The notes under the pieces: generated by a model | The model's database searches: none | What the model was told of the DNA's origin: nothing | The model's input: only the letters and a program-made list of their open reading frames with translations | Translations under genes and position numbers: made by a program | Shown here: one piece after another, positions 14,161-20,948 of the stretch | How the letters are laid out: each line of letters starts with the position of its first letter | Position numbering within the stretch: the first letter of the stretch is position 1 | Source of the DNA: Myxococcaceae bacterium | GTDB lineage: Bacteria > Myxococcota > Myxococcia > Myxococcales > Myxococcaceae | Direction: 5' to 3' | NCBI GenBank assembly: GCA_017881265.1 | Contig: JADGRA010000043.1 | Span: 1-52,457, forward strand | Length of the DNA: 52,457 bases

Positions 14161-14793
14161 TCAACCCTTCCCTGGCGTTGCGGCTCGGGCCCGCAGCACC
14201 GCTTGTACCTCCTCGAGTCCCACGCCGACGGCCCGCAGCGCGACGGTGAGGTGGTAGATGACGTCGGCGGCTTCCTCCACCGCGCGCGCCGCATCCGCGT
14301 CGGCGCACGCCGTCACCAATTCCGCCATCTCCTCTCCCAGCTTCTTGAGGCGCAGGTTTCTGTCCGCGAGCAGCCGCTGGGTGTAGCTGGCCGGCCCGGA
14401 CGCGGTGCTCGCCCGCTCGCGGACGACGGCGTCCAGGCTGGAGAAGCCCGTGCCGGCGCGCCCTGCCTCCCCGAAGCAGGACACCGCGCCGGTGTGGCAG
14501 GCGGGTCCGGCCGGCTCGACGTCGGCCAGCAGCGCATCCCGGTCGCAGTCGGCCGTCAGCCGCAGGACACGCTGGAGGTTTCCACTCGTCTCTCCCTTCT
14601 TCCACAGCCCGCGTGTCCGCGAACGGTAGTGCATCCACCCCGTCCGCACCGTCTCTGCCACCGCCTCGGCGTCCACGTGGGCCACCATCAGGACGGCGCC
14701 GGTGTGCGCGTCCCGCGTCACCACCGTCACGCGGCCCCCGCCCCGCTGGAAGTCGAGTTCCGGCGCCTGCACCTGCTGCTGTGCTTCCTCCAT
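14161..14793 (-). CDS. hisIE: Bifunctional phosphoribosyl-AMP cyclohydrolase / phosphoribosyl-ATP pyrophosphatase
   Basis: A 210-aa fusion that carries out steps 2 and 3 of histidine synthesis. The N-terminal HisI part has the metal-binding TADCDRDALL and CHTGAVSCF motifs. The C-terminal HisE part has EEMAELV and EEAADVIYHLTVALRAVG. It is the last gene of the his operon. Two starts are possible: the ATG at 14793 (chosen) or the GTG at 14802 that would overlap the hisF stop as GTGA. Neither has a strong ribosome-binding site. Its stop is 10 bp from the stop of the convergent MFS gene. Confidence 0.95.
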   Translation of the reverse strand: MEEAQQQVQAPELDFQRGGGRVTVVTRDAHTGAVLMVAHVDAEAVAETVRTGWMHYRSRTRGLWKKGETSGNLQRVLRLTADCDRDALLADVEPAGPACHTGAVSCFGEAGRAGTGFSSLDAVVRERASTASGPASYTQRLLADRNLRLKKLGEEMAELVTACADADAARAVEEAADVIYHLTVALRAVGVGLEEVQAVLRARAATPGKG

Positions 14794-14798
14794 GGCCT

Positions 14799-15554
14799 TC
14801 ACTGCCGCACCGGGATGCCCGCGCCCCGCAGCGCCTGCTTGAGGCCGGCCAGCGTGGCCGTCCCATCGTGGAGAATGCCTGCCAGCAGCGCCGCATCCGC
14901 GTTGGCGTCCTGCAGCACTGCGCGAACGTGCTCGGCGTTGCCAGCACCACCGGAGGCCACCACTGGGACGCCGACGGCCGAGGAGACGGCCCGGGTGAGG
15001 GCCATTTCGTAGCCGGTGCGCGCCCCGTCCCTGTCCATGCAGGTGAGGAGAATCTCCCCCGCACCGCGCTGGACCACCTCGCCGGCCCATGCCAGCACGT
15101 CCCGTCCGGTGCCCTCGCGGCCACCGCGCACCACCACCTCCCAGCCCGGGGCCGTCGCCCGGGCGTCGATGCTGACCACCACGCACTGGCTGCCAAAGCG
15201 CGCAGCACACGCCGAGACGAGCTCCGGGTGGGCCACCGCCGCGCTGTTGAGCGTCACCTTGTCCGCTCCGGCGCGCAGCGCCTGGGCCACGTCCTCCACC
15301 GAACGCATCCCGCCTCCCACCGTCAGGGGCACCGTCAGCTGCTCGGCCGTCCGCCGCACGCCCTCCAGCAGCGGCGCCCGTCCTTCGTGGGTGGCCGAGA
15401 TGTCCAGCAGCACCACCTCGTCCGCCCCGTCCTCGTCGTAGCGGCGGGCGAGCTCGGCCGGGTCCCCCGCGTCGCGCAAGTGGACGAAGCGCGTGCCCTT
15501 CACCACCCGACCGGCGTCCACGTCCAGACAGGCGATGAGACGCTTCGTCAGCAT
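14799..15554 (-). CDS. hisF: Imidazole glycerol phosphate synthase cyclase subunit
   Basis: A 251-aa (beta/alpha)8 barrel that converts PRFAR plus ammonia from HisH into imidazole-glycerol phosphate and AICAR. The two catalytic aspartates are visible in CLDVD (Asp ~11) and SIDAR (Asp ~130). Phosphate-binding loops VGGGMRSVEDV and ASGGAGNAEHV are intact. The start overlaps the hisB end by 7 bp. Normal length for HisF. Confidence 0.97.
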   Translation of the reverse strand: MLTKRLIACLDVDAGRVVKGTRFVHLRDAGDPAELARRYDEDGADEVVLLDISATHEGRAPLLEGVRRTAEQLTVPLTVGGGMRSVEDVAQALRAGADKVTLNSAAVAHPELVSACAARFGSQCVVVSIDARATAPGWEVVVRGGREGTGRDVLAWAGEVVQRGAGEILLTCMDRDGARTGYEMALTRAVSSAVGVPVVASGGAGNAEHVRAVLQDANADAALLAGILHDGTATLAGLKQALRGAGIPVRQ

Positions 15555-16090
15555 TCGCCCTCCTTCCAGCTCACCGTGCCCTTCAGGCTGACCACGGCGC
15601 CGTCCTCGGCCAGTGCCGCGCGGAGCGAGAGGCCCACCGCCTTGAAGGCCGCTTCCAGCAGGTGGTGGCGGTTGTGCCCGCGCAGCACGCGCACGTGCAG
15701 CGTGAAGCCGGCGTTCTCCGCGAAGCTGCGCAACCAGTGCTGGTAGAGCGCGCTGGGTAGCTTTCCCCGGTAGTAGGGCCGTCCGCCAGCGTCCAACACC
15801 GCCTGCACCAGCGCGTCGTCCATGGGGACACAGCGCTCGCCAAAGCGGCGGGCCGCCTCCGGAACCAGCCTGCGGACGGCTTGCCCCAGGGTGATGGCGA
15901 CGTCCTCCATGAGGTGGTGCGTCAAGTCTCCCTCCGCCCGCAGCACCAGCGAGAAGCCGGCGTACCGGGCCAGGGTGGTCAGCATGTGGTTGAAGAAGGT
16001 AAGGCGCGTCTCCACCAGTACCGGCCCCTCAACGCGGGCCACCTCGACGACGACGCGCGTCTCCTTGGACGTCCGCTCCAGGCGTGTCAT
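15548..16090 (-). CDS. hisB: Imidazoleglycerol-phosphate dehydratase
   Basis: A 180-aa monofunctional IGP dehydratase, without the histidinol-phosphatase domain of the enterobacterial HisB. It keeps the manganese-binding motifs DLTHHLMEDV and GHNRHHLLEAAFK. The ATG overlaps the hisA stop (ATGA), so translation is coupled. It is slightly shorter than many HisB proteins (~195 aa) because the N-terminus is compact. Its position between hisA and hisF differs from the G-D-C-B-H-A-F-I order of E. coli. Confidence 0.95.
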   Translation of the reverse strand: MTRLERTSKETRVVVEVARVEGPVLVETRLTFFNHMLTTLARYAGFSLVLRAEGDLTHHLMEDVAITLGQAVRRLVPEAARRFGERCVPMDDALVQAVLDAGGRPYYRGKLPSALYQHWLRSFAENAGFTLHVRVLRGHNRHHLLEAAFKAVGLSLRAALAEDGAVVSLKGTVSWKEGEC

Positions 16091-16800
16091 GGAAATTCCC
16101 TGGCCAGGGCCGCGCCGTCCAGCGTCCCGGTGTAGAGGGCCATGCCGACGACAGCGGCGGACACGCCGGCCTCGGCCAGCCGCCTCAGCTCCTCGACGGA
16201 GGCAATGCCGCCGGAGGCCTGAAGCGGGTGGCGCGTGAGGCCGACCAACTCCTCGAGGAGCGCGAAGTCCGTCCCCTGCATCTGGCCCTCCCGGTGGACG
16301 GCCGTCACCAGGACGGCGGCCAGGGGCAGCACGTCCAGGGAGGCAACGAGGGCGCCGACGTCCTGGTCCAGCGTCCGGCTCCACCCGTGCGTCACCACCT
16401 GCCGACCGCGGGCGTCGGCCGCCACCACCAGCCGCCGGGGGAACGCGAGGGCCATGGCTTCCAGCCAGTCCCTGTCCTCCACGGCCCGTGTGCCGAGCAC
16501 CGCGCGCTCGGCCCCCGCCTCCAGCCAGTGGCGAATGCCCGCCTCGTCCCGGAGGCCACCCCCCACCTGCACCTCGGCCCCCGGCAGCTGGCGCAGCACC
16601 TCCTCCACGATGGCGGCGTTGGTGCCCTGGCCGGTGGCGGCGTCGAGGTCCACCACGTGCAGTACCCCAAACCCCAGGGCAAGCCAGCGCCGCGCCACCT
16701 CCACCGGGTGGGGCAGTCGCACGCGCTCCTCTTGCAGTGAGCCGCCCACCAGCTGGACGCAGCTGCCCTGGTGCAAGTCCAGCGCAGGAAATACTCTCAT
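16087..16800 (-). CDS. hisA: ProFAR isomerase (phosphoribosylformimino-AICAR-P isomerase)
   Basis: A 237-aa (beta/alpha)8 barrel catalysing the Amadori rearrangement of ProFAR to PRFAR. The catalytic aspartates are in FPALDLHQG (Asp 8) and VVAADARG. Phosphate-binding loops VGGGLRDEAGI and ASGGIASVEEL are present. The start overlaps the hisH stop as ATGA and the end overlaps hisB in the same way. Confidence 0.96.
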   Translation of the reverse strand: MRVFPALDLHQGSCVQLVGGSLQEERVRLPHPVEVARRWLALGFGVLHVVDLDAATGQGTNAAIVEEVLRQLPGAEVQVGGGLRDEAGIRHWLEAGAERAVLGTRAVEDRDWLEAMALAFPRRLVVAADARGRQVVTHGWSRTLDQDVGALVASLDVLPLAAVLVTAVHREGQMQGTDFALLEELVGLTRHPLQASGGIASVEELRRLAEAGVSAAVVGMALYTGTLDGAALAREFP

Positions 16801-17390
16801 GGTCGCAACTCCTCGAGCACCGCGGCCAGAAACCGCCGGCCGGCCGGGCCGCTCTTCTCCGGGTGAAACTGGACGCCCACCGTCCGCGCCGTCCGCACCA
16901 GCGCGGGAATGCGCACACTCTCGTGCTCGCTCACCGCGCGCACGGCACCCATGTCCGTCAACACGCAGAGATAGCTATGCGCGTAATAGGCCGTGGTGAG
17001 TCCCGAGAGCGCGAGCAGTCTGTCCTCGCCTTCCACCGCATTCCAGCCCATGTGCGGCACGCGGCGAGCGCGCAGGCGCTGCACCCGGCCCGGCAGCACG
17101 GAGAGCCCCTCCCCGGGCCCCTCCTCGCTCGCGGTCAAGAGTAGCTGCAGCCCCAGGCAGATGGCCAGGCAGGGCAAGCCGTCCCGCAGCGCCTGGGCTA
17201 AGTCCGCACGCACCGGCGCCAGGCGCTCGGCGGCCGGGGCGAAGGCGCCCACACCGGGAAGGACGAGGGCCTGCGCGTCCAGACAGCGGCGTGCGTCCGT
17301 CTCCACGGCCACGGCTGCGCCACAGCTCTCGAGTGCCCGCCCGAGGGAGTGGAGGTTGCCCGCTCCGGTGTCCAGCAGGGTCAGCTTCAT
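16797..17390 (-). CDS. hisH: Imidazole glycerol phosphate synthase glutaminase subunit
   Basis: A 197-aa class I glutamine amidotransferase that feeds ammonia to HisF. The nucleophile Cys sits in CLAICLGLQLLL, and the His and Glu of the triad in VQFHPEKSG. Other family marks are DTGAGNLHSL at the start and PHMGWN. The ATG at 17390 overlaps the hisC stop as ATGA. Confidence 0.97.
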   Translation of the reverse strand: MKLTLLDTGAGNLHSLGRALESCGAAVAVETDARRCLDAQALVLPGVGAFAPAAERLAPVRADLAQALRDGLPCLAICLGLQLLLTASEEGPGEGLSVLPGRVQRLRARRVPHMGWNAVEGEDRLLALSGLTTAYYAHSYLCVLTDMGAVRAVSEHESVRIPALVRTARTVGVQFHPEKSGPAGRRFLAAVLEELRP

Positions 17391-18445
17391 CGGAGGCCCT
17401 CCGCGACCACCGCGCGCAGCGCCGCCAGCACCACTTCCATGCTGTCCCAGGGCCCGACACCAATGCGCAGCGCGTCCCCGAGGCCAGGCAGCGCCCGAAG
17501 GACGCGCACCCGCACCCCCCGGGCGAGGAGGCGGGCCCCCCAGCTGGCGGCATGGGCGACGGGGATGCACAGGAAGTTGGCCCCGGAGGGAAGCGGGGAC
17601 AAGCCCACGCGACGCAGCTCTGCCGCCAGGCGCTCCCGGACATCCCGCGCCTCCGCTGTGCGCGCGCGCACCCAGGGCAAGTCCTCGGTGAGGGCCGCCA
17701 GCGCGGCCCGCTCCGCCACCGCGTTGACTTTGTACGGCCCCCGCACCAGCGCGAGCGCCGCCACCACGCGTTCGGCGCCCAAGCCATAGCCGACGCGAAG
17801 CCCGGCCAGCCCGAAGGCCTTGGAGAGGGTGCGGGTGATGAGGAGGTGGGGGAAGCGCTGAAGCGACGGCACCCAGGAGCGCTCGGCAAACTCACCGTAC
17901 GCCTCGTCCACCAGCACCAGGCCCTCAGCCGAGGCGAGGAGTTGCTCCAGCGCCCGGGCGGAGGCTTCGCGGCCGGTCGGGTTGTTGGGCGAGGCGACGT
18001 AGGTAATGCGTGCCCGGGCCGAAAGCAGCGCCTCCACGTCGAGGTCGCCGTCGGGGCGGAAGGGCACGCCATGCGGCCGCAGGCCATTGACGCGCGCGAA
18101 GGTGGGCAGCATGGAAAAGGTGGGCGCACAGAAGGCCACCGCCTCCCCCGGCTCGGCGAAGGCCCGCAGCGTGCAGTCGATGACGTCGTCGGAGCCGCAG
18201 CCCGTCACCACCTGCTCCGGCGTCACCCCGGCATAGTCGGCCAGGGCGGCGCACAGCGCGCGGGGGTCCGCCGGCGGGTAGCGGCTGATGCTCTGTGCGG
18301 ACACCAAGCGCACCGCCCGCTCTGCGGCCGGGGACGGACCCCAGAGGCTGGTGTTGTCGCTCACGTCCAACGGACACGCCCCGGCCTCGGGGTTGTAGCG
18401 CTCCAGCCCGGCCAGGGCGGCGCGCGGTACGGGAAGCCCCCTCAT
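17387..18445 (-). CDS. hisC: Histidinol-phosphate aminotransferase
   Basis: A 352-aa fold-type I PLP aminotransferase. The PLP lysine is in TRTLSKAFGLAGLRVGYG; the cofactor-binding segments SPNNPTG and VLVDEAYGEF are intact. The usual NENP substrate-loop motif is replaced by SDNTSLWG, a variant found in some HisC-like branches. The operon position between hisD and hisH supports the histidinol-phosphate role. ATGA overlaps exist at both ends. Confidence 0.94.
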   Translation of the reverse strand: MRGLPVPRAALAGLERYNPEAGACPLDVSDNTSLWGPSPAAERAVRLVSAQSISRYPPADPRALCAALADYAGVTPEQVVTGCGSDDVIDCTLRAFAEPGEAVAFCAPTFSMLPTFARVNGLRPHGVPFRPDGDLDVEALLSARARITYVASPNNPTGREASARALEQLLASAEGLVLVDEAYGEFAERSWVPSLQRFPHLLITRTLSKAFGLAGLRVGYGLGAERVVAALALVRGPYKVNAVAERAALAALTEDLPWVRARTAEARDVRERLAAELRRVGLSPLPSGANFLCIPVAHAASWGARLLARGVRVRVLRALPGLGDALRIGVGPWDSMEVVLAALRAVVAEGLR

Positions 18446-19743
18446 CGGGACCTCCAGGCCTCGGCAGCCGTGGCATGGGCGTACAGGCCCTCGCTTCGGG
18501 CCAGCGTCCCCACGTCCTCGGCCAGGGCAGCCGCCCCGGCCCGCGTCACCTGCTGCACCGTCGTCCAGCGGACGAAGTCCAAGGTGGACAGCCCGGAGTA
18601 GGAGCGGGCCAGGCCGCCGGTGGGCAGCACGTGGTTGGCCCCGGTGCAGTAGTCCGCGAAGGCACCGGACGTCGTTTCCCCCACGAAGATGGTGCCCGCA
18701 TGGCGAGAGCGGGCAGCCACGGTCTCGGCCTTTTCCACCGCGAGCAAGAGGTGCTCCGGCGCCCAGTCCGCGATGAAGGACAGCGCCTCCGCGAGGCTGT
18801 CGATGACGAGGACGGCCCCCTTGGTGCGGAGGGCGGCCGAGATGATGTCCCGGCGTGCCGCCGCCTGCGCCCCCCGCTCCAGCGCGTCGATGAGGCGAGT
18901 GGCCGTTTCCGCCTGGAGGACGAGGGCCACCACCGCCGCCTCCGGGTCGTGCTCGGCCTGGGCGAGGAGTTCGCGCGCGACGGCCTCCACGTCCGCCCGG
19001 CCATCCACGAGGGCCAGCAGCTCCGAAGGGCCGGCCGGGGAGTCGATGGCCACCACGCCCTGCACCTGCGCCTTGGCCTCGGCCACCCAGGCGTTGCCCG
19101 GCCCGACAATCCGGCTGACGCGCGGCACGCTGGCCGTCCCGTACGCGAGCGCGGCGATGGCACCGGCGCCACCCAGGGCAAATACGCGGTCCACGCCGGA
19201 CAGCGCGGCGGCGGCCAGCACCACGGCGGACGGGAGCCCGTTCGGCCCGGGAGGGGAGCAGAGGATGACCTCTTCCACGCCAGCGACGCGAGCCGGGACG
19301 ACTCCCATCAGCACGCTGCTCGGATAGGCCGCGCGCCCGCCGGGGGCGTAGACGCCTACCCGCTGGAGGGGGTCCGGCCGGCGCTCGACGGACACACCGG
19401 GCTCCACTTCCAGGCGGCAGGGTAGCGGACGCGTGGCCTGGTGGACGCGCGTCAGGTTACGCACCGCGCGCTCGAGGGCCTGGCGCAGGGGCGCCGCCAG
19501 GCCGCCGAGCGCCGCCTCGCACTGCGCGCGGGGGACTTCCAGCGAGTCCAGCGCGACGCCGTCCAGCTGTTGCGCCAGCGTGCGCAACGCCTCATCCCCG
19601 CGCGTCCGGACGGCCTCGAGGATGGCAGCCGTCTGCTGACGCAGCCGCCCCTCCCCGGCCTCGGCCGCGCGGGTCCGCAGGGCCCGCAGCGCAAGCGCGT
19701 CCAGTGCGTCCAGCCGCCCCGTCCACCGCAGCAGCGCAGTCAT
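18442..19743 (-). CDS. hisD: Histidinol dehydrogenase
   Basis: A 433-aa enzyme for the last two oxidations of histidine synthesis (histidinol to histidine via the aldehyde). Diagnostic stretches are GRAAYPSSVLMGVVPARVAGV, VSRIVGPGNAWVAEAK, IDSPAGPSELL with the zinc-ligand AQAEHD, and the catalytic EH pair in WAPEHLLL. The ATG at 19743 overlaps the hisG stop (ATGA). The frame is open upstream but without family sequence. Confidence 0.97.
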   Translation of the reverse strand: MTALLRWTGRLDALDALALRALRTRAAEAGEGRLRQQTAAILEAVRTRGDEALRTLAQQLDGVALDSLEVPRAQCEAALGGLAAPLRQALERAVRNLTRVHQATRPLPCRLEVEPGVSVERRPDPLQRVGVYAPGGRAAYPSSVLMGVVPARVAGVEEVILCSPPGPNGLPSAVVLAAAALSGVDRVFALGGAGAIAALAYGTASVPRVSRIVGPGNAWVAEAKAQVQGVVAIDSPAGPSELLALVDGRADVEAVARELLAQAEHDPEAAVVALVLQAETATRLIDALERGAQAAARRDIISAALRTKGAVLVIDSLAEALSFIADWAPEHLLLAVEKAETVAARSRHAGTIFVGETTSGAFADYCTGANHVLPTGGLARSYSGLSTLDFVRWTTVQQVTRAGAAALAEDVGTLARSEGLYAHATAAEAWRSR

Positions 19744-20597
19744 GGCAACAGCCTCTCGATGCGCGTCACCAGAATGCCCTCGCCGCCCAGTGCCTTGAGC
19801 GCCCCCACCGTGCGGTACAGGGCCGCCTCCCCCACCACCGCGTGCACCGCCACCAGCGGCCCCCCGCCGTGAAGTTCCAGCACCGTCGGGCCATTCAGCC
19901 CTGGCAGCACCTCCCGCACCTGGTCCAGCGCCGCCCGGGGGACGTTGGCCATGAGGTAACGCTTGCCCCGGGCGCGGACGACGCTGAGGAGCGCGTCCTG
20001 CAGCCCGGCCAGGGCGGTGGCCTTCGGCCCGGAGACGTCCGGCCGGGCCACCAGGCGGGCGCTGGAGTCGAGCAACGTCGCCACCTCCCGAAGCCCATTC
20101 ACCCGCAGCGTGCTGCCGGTGCTGGTGAGGTCCACCACCACGTCGGCGATGCCAAGGTGGGGCGCCACCTCGGCCGCTCCGGACACCGGCACCACCTCCA
20201 CCGGCAGCGAGCGCGCCGCGAACCAAGTTGCGGTGCAGCGGGGAAAGGACGTCGCCACCCGGGGACGGGCGGGCAGCTGCTCCACCGCCTCGATGCCCGC
20301 GTCCTCGCGGGCTGCCAGGACCAGCCGACACCGTCCAAACTCGAGGTCCAGCCGTGCCTCAATGGGCCGCCCGGACTCCTGCACCAAGTCCCAGCCGGTA
20401 ACACCCGCGTCGGCCACGCCGTCGGCCACCAGTTCCGCGATGTCCTGACTGCGGACGAAGATGGCCTCGAATTCTCCGCCAAGGGAAGCGGTGAGGGCGC
20501 GGTCTCCGCGGGCGCGGATTTCCAGCCCGGCGTCGGCGAACAAGTCCCGGGTGTCCTCGGCGAGGCGGCCTTTGTTGGGGAGAGCAATTCGAAGCAT
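19740..20597 (-). CDS. hisG: ATP phosphoribosyltransferase, long form
   Basis: A 285-aa HisG, the first and feedback-regulated enzyme of histidine synthesis, which joins ATP and PRPP. It is the long form that does not need HisZ. The catalytic core starts LRIALPNKGRL and includes TSTGSTLRVNGL (phosphate loop). The C-terminal ~75 residues form the allosteric ACT-like domain ending VGALKALGGEGILVTRIERLLP, which binds histidine in homologues. The ATG at 20597 matches the family N-terminus exactly. Upstream lies the leader peptide and terminator hairpin, so both attenuation and feedback inhibition are likely. Confidence 0.96.
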   Translation of the reverse strand: MLRIALPNKGRLAEDTRDLFADAGLEIRARGDRALTASLGGEFEAIFVRSQDIAELVADGVADAGVTGWDLVQESGRPIEARLDLEFGRCRLVLAAREDAGIEAVEQLPARPRVATSFPRCTATWFAARSLPVEVVPVSGAAEVAPHLGIADVVVDLTSTGSTLRVNGLREVATLLDSSARLVARPDVSGPKATALAGLQDALLSVVRARGKRYLMANVPRAALDQVREVLPGLNGPTVLELHGGGPLVAVHAVVGEAALYRTVGALKALGGEGILVTRIERLLP

Positions 20598-20641
20598 GGG
20601 GTGACCTGGTGGAGCTGCGAGGGACGTCCAGAAACGACAAA

Positions 20642-20669
20642 GGGCCCGGTCGCGGTGGCGAACGGGCCC
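20642..20669 (-). terminator. Attenuator hairpin upstream of hisG
   Basis: On the minus strand, 12-nt arms (GGGCCCGTTCGC and GCGACCGGGCCC, one mismatch) close a 4-nt loop and are followed by TTTGTCGTTTC. This is a strong intrinsic terminator located between the stop of the His-rich leader ORF (20696) and the hisG start (20597), exactly where an attenuator should be. Confidence 0.72.
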
Positions 20670-20695
20670 AGTCGGGAGAAGCCTTGGTGTGGGGG

Positions 20696-20824
20696 CTAGG
20701 AGTGGATGGACGTCACGCCATGCGCCCGCACCGACCCGATGGGGCCGTGCCGATGGTGCGCATGGGAATGGTGCTGCGTGAGGTTGACCACGGCGCAATG
20801 GGTAACATGACGGAGTCCGCGCAC
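20696..20824 (-). CDS. hisL: his operon leader peptide (His-rich)
   Basis: A 42-codon ORF on the hisG transcript containing the run HHSHAHHRH (six His in nine codons) plus three or more further His codons. It ends in TAG about 27 nt before the terminator hairpin. The GTG at 20824 has GGAGG about 10 nt upstream and is the preferred start; a second GTG at 20788 would give a shorter peptide with the same His run. By analogy with enterobacterial HisL, ribosome stalling at the His codons when charged tRNA-His is scarce would alter the downstream RNA fold and let transcription enter hisG. There is no other sign of function for the peptide itself. Confidence 0.68.
   Translation of the reverse strand: MRGLRHVTHCAVVNLTQHHSHAHHRHGPIGSVRAHGVTSIHS
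20718..20765 (-). promoter_or_regulatory. Leader-region hairpin overlapping the His codon run
   Basis: CCATGCGC and GCGCATGG are perfect 8-bp arms, with an inner ACC/GGT extension. The 5' arm lies within the His codons (SHAHHRH). A ribosome stalled there would open this hairpin, so it is a candidate for the pause/1:2 structure of the attenuator. Confidence 0.5.
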
Positions 20825-20948
20825 GCAAACCCGCCCTCCCGCCCTCCCGGGGGCGACGGTGGGCACGGGACGTGCTAGCCCAACGTCTCCCGTCTGCGGG
20901 CTGAGTGCACTCCGCAGCCGGCGGAAGGGATTGCCCCGCTTGTCCTTC

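Follow-up and report, generated by a model that had tools for sequence, protein, structure and literature searches.

A putative ribosome-mediated histidine attenuator, probably translated from a leaderless mRNA, upstream of hisG in Myxococcaceae and Gemmatimonadota

The his operon and the region upstream of hisG

The window, by which we mean the whole 52,457-nt stretch of Myxococcaceae DNA analyzed here, carries on its minus strand a his operon with the full set of genes for histidine synthesis. A 31-codon ORF with VVNLTQHHSHAHHRH lies on the same strand between hisG, the first gene of the operon, and a promoter-like site. In the order in which they would be transcribed, the features of this region are the following:

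20799 to 20828, minus strand: promoter-like site, with TTGCGT at 20828-20823, an 18-nt spacer and TACCCA at 20804-20799; 7 nt separate the end of the -10-like box from GTG 20791
20696 to 20791, minus strand: His leader peptide ORF with a GTG start, encoding VVNLTQHHSHAHHRHGPIGSVRAHGVTSIHS, with the stop codon TAG at 20698-20696 and homologous ORFs in relatives
20747 to 20773, minus strand: putative His control codons CAC CAT TCC CAT GCG CAC CAT CGG CAC (HHSHAHHRH)
20718 to 20765, minus strand: predicted hairpin 1:2, with the His codons contributing its 5′ arm and the tail of the leader ORF its 3′ arm, from folding of the window and 18 relatives
20735 to 20746, minus strand: predicted antiterminator region 2, GGCCCCAUCGGG, adjoining the 3′ end of the His run, with region 3 as its partner
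20665 to 20676, minus strand: predicted antiterminator region 3, CCCGACUGGGCC, which extends into the terminator 5′ arm
20642 to 20669, minus strand: predicted intrinsic terminator stem-loop, GGGCCCGTTCGC-CACC-GCGACCGGGCCC, with family-wide stem covariation
20631 to 20641, minus strand: U-rich tract, TTTGTCGTTTC, directly 3′ of the terminator stem
19740 to 20597, minus strand: hisG, ATP phosphoribosyltransferase (long form), first gene of the operon (PF01634, 1.1e-46; PF08029, 2e-21)
14161 to 19742, minus strand: hisD, hisC, hisH, hisA, hisB, hisF and hisIE, the rest of the operon, assigned by Pfam matches

An earlier note on this DNA had placed a leader ORF with six His codons in nine directly upstream of hisG. 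Both the position and the codons were confirmed, as the hisG ATG is at 20597 on the same strand, the His run occupies 20773-20747 and the ORF ends at the TAG listed above. In a six-frame translation of the 52-kb window, the run was unique at a density of at least six His per 10 codons (two overlapping hits in 93,348 windows of codons). The hairpin described as having its 5′ arm inside the His run was recovered by folding, with pairing of 20764-20758 and 20725-20719 (CATGCGC/GCGCATG). The claim of a 12-bp terminator stem followed by a T-rich stretch was borne out in part: the stem at 20669-20642 is present, but 11 pairs are formed over its 12 positions, with one U-C mismatch, the T-tract is modest and weaker than the U-runs of relatives, and a simple terminator scan of the window did not flag the stem. 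The antiterminator, in which 20746-20735 would pair with 20676-20665, was absent from the note and is identified here.

Conservation of the leader in related genomes

We examined 80 hisG loci from public genomes and found a His-rich short ORF 135-243 nt upstream of hisG in nearly every locus from Myxococcaceae and Gemmatimonadota, with HHHAHHxHGPTGRG as the common peptide pattern. Homologous leader ORFs were present in all Myxococcaceae long-hisG loci that were read and in most of the Gemmatimonadota loci examined. A covariance model, R1, detected the element in 71 of 96 Myxococcaceae genomes, complete genomes included, and these are the same 71 that encode a long HisG (at least 64% identity to that of the window), among them Myxococcus, Corallococcus and Archangium. 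The model also matched 116 of 298 Gemmatimonadota genomes under strict filters, of which the weakest matches may be due to chance, and 7 of 47 Eiseniibacteriota genomes at E below 1e-17. The His codons, the hairpin, the antiterminator and the terminator are kept over dozens of genera. Non-conservation in relatives had been named as grounds for abandoning the attenuator reading; instead, in the related genomes the His codons are conserved and the terminator pairs covary.

In an alignment of 45 sequences running from the leader start to the U-tract, the His codons were among the most conserved features, and histidine is kept while its codons swap freely (266 CAT and 213 CAC among the His codons of the family). 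Conservation of the peptide could reflect a His-rich micropeptide, for example a metal-binding one, that acts in trans and to which regulation is secondary, as there is a precedent in the S. meliloti leader peptide peTrpL, which acts in trans (PMC7298713), and the HHHAHHxHGPTGRG pattern is itself conserved. However, the reading frame after the His run varies freely in Myxococcaceae, and the conservation of GPTGRG can be attributed to the RNA, since its codons give GACGGGUCGGGG, which is region 2. We therefore regard a functional micropeptide as highly improbable.

Promoter and translation start of the leader

The -35-like box of the window, TTGCGT, is a weak match, and a sigma-70 scan of the window returned no site at the promoter-like region. 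Its spacing is nevertheless the same as in the relatives (TTGCGT-18-TACCCA-7-GTG 20791). Among 71 distinct upstream regions, 62 have a TTGAC that starts 35-41 nt before the leader start codon and forms TTGAC-17/18-TANNNT at the matching position, and the -10 box there is followed by the start codon at a distance of 5-12 nt (mode 7). Sigma-70 transcription starts about 7 nt after the -10 box. Given this distance and the observed spacing, the 5′ end of the mRNA would coincide with the start codon or lie a few bases from it, and the promoter spacing in the 62 loci fits a 5′ UTR of approximately 0-4 nt. An SD-like 4-mer was found upstream of the leader in only 6 of the 71 loci.

The earlier note had preferred another start, GTG 20824-20822, with a good Shine-Dalgarno sequence. 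This codon is in frame and is indeed preceded by GGGAGGG (GGGAGGGCGGG upstream), so that an SD-driven leader of the classical kind might be considered. But it overlaps the -35-like box and is missing from the two nearest relatives, L001 and L082, whereas the conserved leader start is GTG 20791-20789, which lacks an SD; moreover, in 62 of 71 relatives the promoter is too close to the leader to leave room for one. Comparison with the relatives thus led us to reject the start at GTG 20824, which we consider very unlikely. That codon lies inside the promoter and is not conserved. Together with the TTGAC spacing in 62 of 71 loci, this makes a leaderless mRNA, with initiation at GTG 20791, the most likely template for the leader peptide. 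The histidine leader proposed in the note therefore stands with two corrections, one to its start and one to its scope, as the device is general in Myxococcaceae and common in Gemmatimonadota.

Alternative RNA pairings and the predicted switch

In all but a few loci a terminator of the consensus GGCCCGUCC-loop-GGACGGGCC-U run (UUUUU in most) lies 27-56 nt 3′ of the leader stop codon. Many pairs of its stem are compensated across the family; at pair 3 from the loop, for instance, CG (18), UA (47) and GC (4) together make 69 of 69 paired. The segment adjoining the His run is GACGGGUC(GGGG) in most loci, and it pairs with the 5′ arm of the terminator. In most of the relatives folded, the two arms of hairpin 1:2 contain the His codons (5′) and region 2 (3′). 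RNAalifold returned only 10 pairs on the full alignment, as overlapping alternative helices cannot be represented in a single structure, and pairs were for this reason counted on anchored rows instead. With the region 2 anchor picked for best pairing, 88.2% of antiterminator cells were paired in 34 distinct anchored rows, compared to 26-54% when the arms were slid, and the covariation score was 0.198 vs. 0.168 in shuffled rows, with 4 of 500 shuffles reaching the real score. This covariation is modest due to a core (ACGGG:CCCGU) that is nearly invariant. The antiterminator duplex energy had a mean z of -2.3 over 72 loci.

The RNA was then folded as far as the terminator loop, either whole or lacking the stretch that would be masked by a ribosome. 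For region 3 of the window, the mean probability of pairing with the leader was 0.22 in ribosome-free RNA and 0.66-0.68 when a ribosome occupied His codons 1-3, and over 72 loci the predicted probability of the antiterminator rose from 0.40 to 0.75 with a ribosome on a His codon. When the intervening RNA was shuffled, the value for the stalled state was 0.35 in the window (4 of 100 shuffles reached the real value) and 0.32 overall; in 66 of 72 loci, at most 10% of shuffles reached the real stalled value. The antiterminator was predicted nearly as well without a ribosome in 27 of the 72 loci, which suggests that the switch there would depend on kinetics or folding order. The state with a ribosome at the stop codon is zero by construction and carries no weight as proof.

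The putative attenuator copy of the window

The window copy is among the weaker elements of the attenuator family. Its covariance score is 72.5 bits and those of its relatives are 68, compared to 105-128 in Myxococcus and others, and it carries one mismatch and one bulge. The laboratory species Myxococcus xanthus (L034) has a stronger element. The window and its nearest relatives, L001 and L082, share an altered terminator, and region 2 is altered along with it. In L001 and L082, region 2 reads GGGCCCG-UCGGG (GGGCCCGUCGGG) and pairs with CCCGACCGGGCCC, with duplex energies of about -28 kcal/mol (z -2.6 and -3.3). In the window, GGCCCCA-UCGGG pairs with CCCGACUGGGCC, and a by-eye reading of the alignment indicates that a G-C pair of L001 and L082 has become A-U; the duplex energy is -23.3 kcal/mol, with a z of -1.2 that is not significant on its own. 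A first antiterminator candidate for the window, GGUGCGGGC with GCCCGUUCGCC, had a z of +0.4 and was dropped when the conserved pairing emerged on lengthening the arm.

It may be asked whether the family is a true attenuator while the window copy is decaying, its terminator and antiterminator having drifted so that little or no response to histidine is left. Its score, the weak -35 box, the mismatched stem, the short U-run and the duplex z of the window are what one would expect in that case. On the other hand, the subgroup retains a matched design, both in the pairing of L001 and L082 and in the G-C to A-U double exchange of the window, the run still has its six His codons in nine within an unbroken reading frame, and the switch is still predicted by folding. 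We consider decay unlikely. Our confidence in the attenuator reading is high for the family and somewhat lower for the window copy.

Proposed mechanism and relation to known systems

No other reading fits these parts, which are conserved across dozens of genera, nearly as well as a histidine leader on which ribosomes stall. As in classical attenuators, a short ORF rich in codons for the product of the operon precedes the biosynthetic genes, a structurally conserved intrinsic terminator (weaker in the window) lies between the leader and the first gene, and an antiterminator that excludes the terminator would, according to the computed foldings, be released by a ribosome on the control codons. 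The region is very probably a ribosome-mediated transcription attenuator through which the his operon responds to the level of charged tRNA-His. RNA polymerase would begin no more than a few bases from GTG 20791; a ribosome would bind the leaderless message and follow it. When His-tRNA is sufficient, the ribosome would pass the His codons to the stop codon and block the pairing of region 2 (20746-20735) with region 3 (20676-20665), so that the terminator at 20669-20642 could form and transcription would stop upstream of hisG. When His-tRNA is scarce, the ribosome would halt at the first His codons and cover the 5′ arm of hairpin 1:2; region 2 would be free to pair with region 3, the terminator would not form, and hisG-hisD-hisC-hisH-hisA-hisB-hisF-hisIE would be transcribed. 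Without translation, hairpin 1:2 would tend to form, making termination the default.

A search against Rfam 15, which includes RF00514 (His_leader) and the T-box, gave no match to the window leader up to E 5 and one weak match outside the leader, and 14 relatives searched at the gathering score gave no match. Histidine T-boxes are known elsewhere (PMC9413887), and the operon might be under the control of a T-box or of a metabolite riboswitch, with an incidental run of His codons. The lack of an Rfam match to the leader and the place of the His codons among the most conserved features speak against such control, to which we give almost no credence. Given the Rfam result, we filed the element as a ribosome-mediated attenuator outside His_leader; it is apparently a classical attenuator of an unregistered family, and an RNA family new to Rfam 15.

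The enterobacterial hisL (RF00514) has the same run of His codons in a short ORF, mutually exclusive hairpins and an intrinsic terminator before the first his gene. The leaders described here differ from it in being probably leaderless, in having interspersed His codons (HHSHAHHRH, HHHAHHxH), in having an ORF of approximately 17-32 codons with region 2 inside it, and in occurring in other phyla. His-leader attenuators have also been predicted in Firmicutes (PMC9413887) and before hisS and hisZ in bacilli (PMC2965389); these likewise combine a His-rich leader with a terminator and antiterminator and were predicted by comparative genomics, but in different lineages, and the main texts of both papers mention neither Myxococcota nor Gemmatimonadota. 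Leaderless leader peptides have been described for leuL, trpL, ilvL and thrL of S. lividans (PMC8079986) and for trpL of S. meliloti (PMC7298713), where the mRNA 5′ end is at the leader start codon, as we infer here, and attenuation is ribosome-dependent; they serve other amino acids in other phyla. We found no leaderless His leader described in these two papers or in the other literature searched, and no his attenuator for Myxococcota or Gemmatimonadota, although an earlier myxobacterial prediction in Lopatovskaya et al. (2010) or Vitreschak et al. (2004) is possible. The mechanism is familiar; new are its lineage, a probably leaderless start and the related leaders recoded for other amino acids. 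In Gemmatimonadota, as in Myxococcus xanthus and the rest of its family, the element is likely to regulate histidine synthesis. Its likely leaderless start would also make it a ready natural reporter, a message that exists only to be translated at the pace of RNA polymerase, and it could serve in tests of transcription-translation coupling and leaderless initiation in phyla for which we found little work on either.

Origin of the operon and of the leader

The HisG proteins of Gemmatimonadota are 57-72% identical to that of the window, compared to 64-80% for other Myxococcaceae and 29-45% for other Myxococcota. Trees of HisG and of HisG+HisD place the Myxococcaceae among Gemmatimonadota. This suggests that the his operon was exchanged between the two phyla, a question that the tree tests do not decide, as the constraint and topology tests on these trees did not reject the alternatives to that placement. 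We tentatively propose, as a possibility that falls short of the probable, that a single old leaderless scaffold is common to Myxococcota, Gemmatimonadota and Eiseniibacteriota, that it was recoded (His before hisG, Thr before thrS, Tyr/Phe before DAHP synthase), and that its his version may have moved between phyla with the operon. The proposed scaffold comprises a TTGAC promoter, a start codon at about +1, control codons, a GACGGG-type region 2 and a terminator.

Additional leaders

The covariance model also retrieved non-His leaders. In Gemmatimonadota, one leader (MLSARAYYYFYFRSLSRAAGVGVRA, L200) precedes a DAHP synthase gene, is accompanied by a terminator and resembles a Tyr/Phe attenuator on the same scaffold, and another (MSALITTTTTTTTGRTTGLGAACVD, L201), with an SD-like AGGAGAG upstream, lies with a terminator upstream of thrS (TGS, tRNA_SAD and tRNA-synt_2b domains). 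Six Myxococcaceae loci (L248-L252 and L254) have Thr-rich short leaders, such as VSFVSAITTTTTTATLFGGSGFVRA, with a GC-rich stem and a TTGACA promoter spaced as for a leaderless start; they precede a threonyl-tRNA-synthetase-like (thrS-like) gene, named from its sequence alone.

Five loci of other Myxococcota with an unrelated HisG (L151, L152, L158, L169 and L170) have their own shorter His leaders, such as MNSCVHHHHHHHQTRGVG, with TTGAC promoters, pairing of the GGGUCGG / CCGACC type and a differing terminator consensus. Upstream of hisG in a Gemmatimonas-labelled MAG (L003), the promoter and terminator are kept while the His run is degenerate (MYPPSVCHHYTHTSHVLRVGAVCV). One contig of genome G274 carries two near-identical His leaders (L198 and L199) approximately 9.5 kb apart, which precede an aminotransferase (hisC-like) gene and hisG, as would a duplicated attenuator serving two operons.
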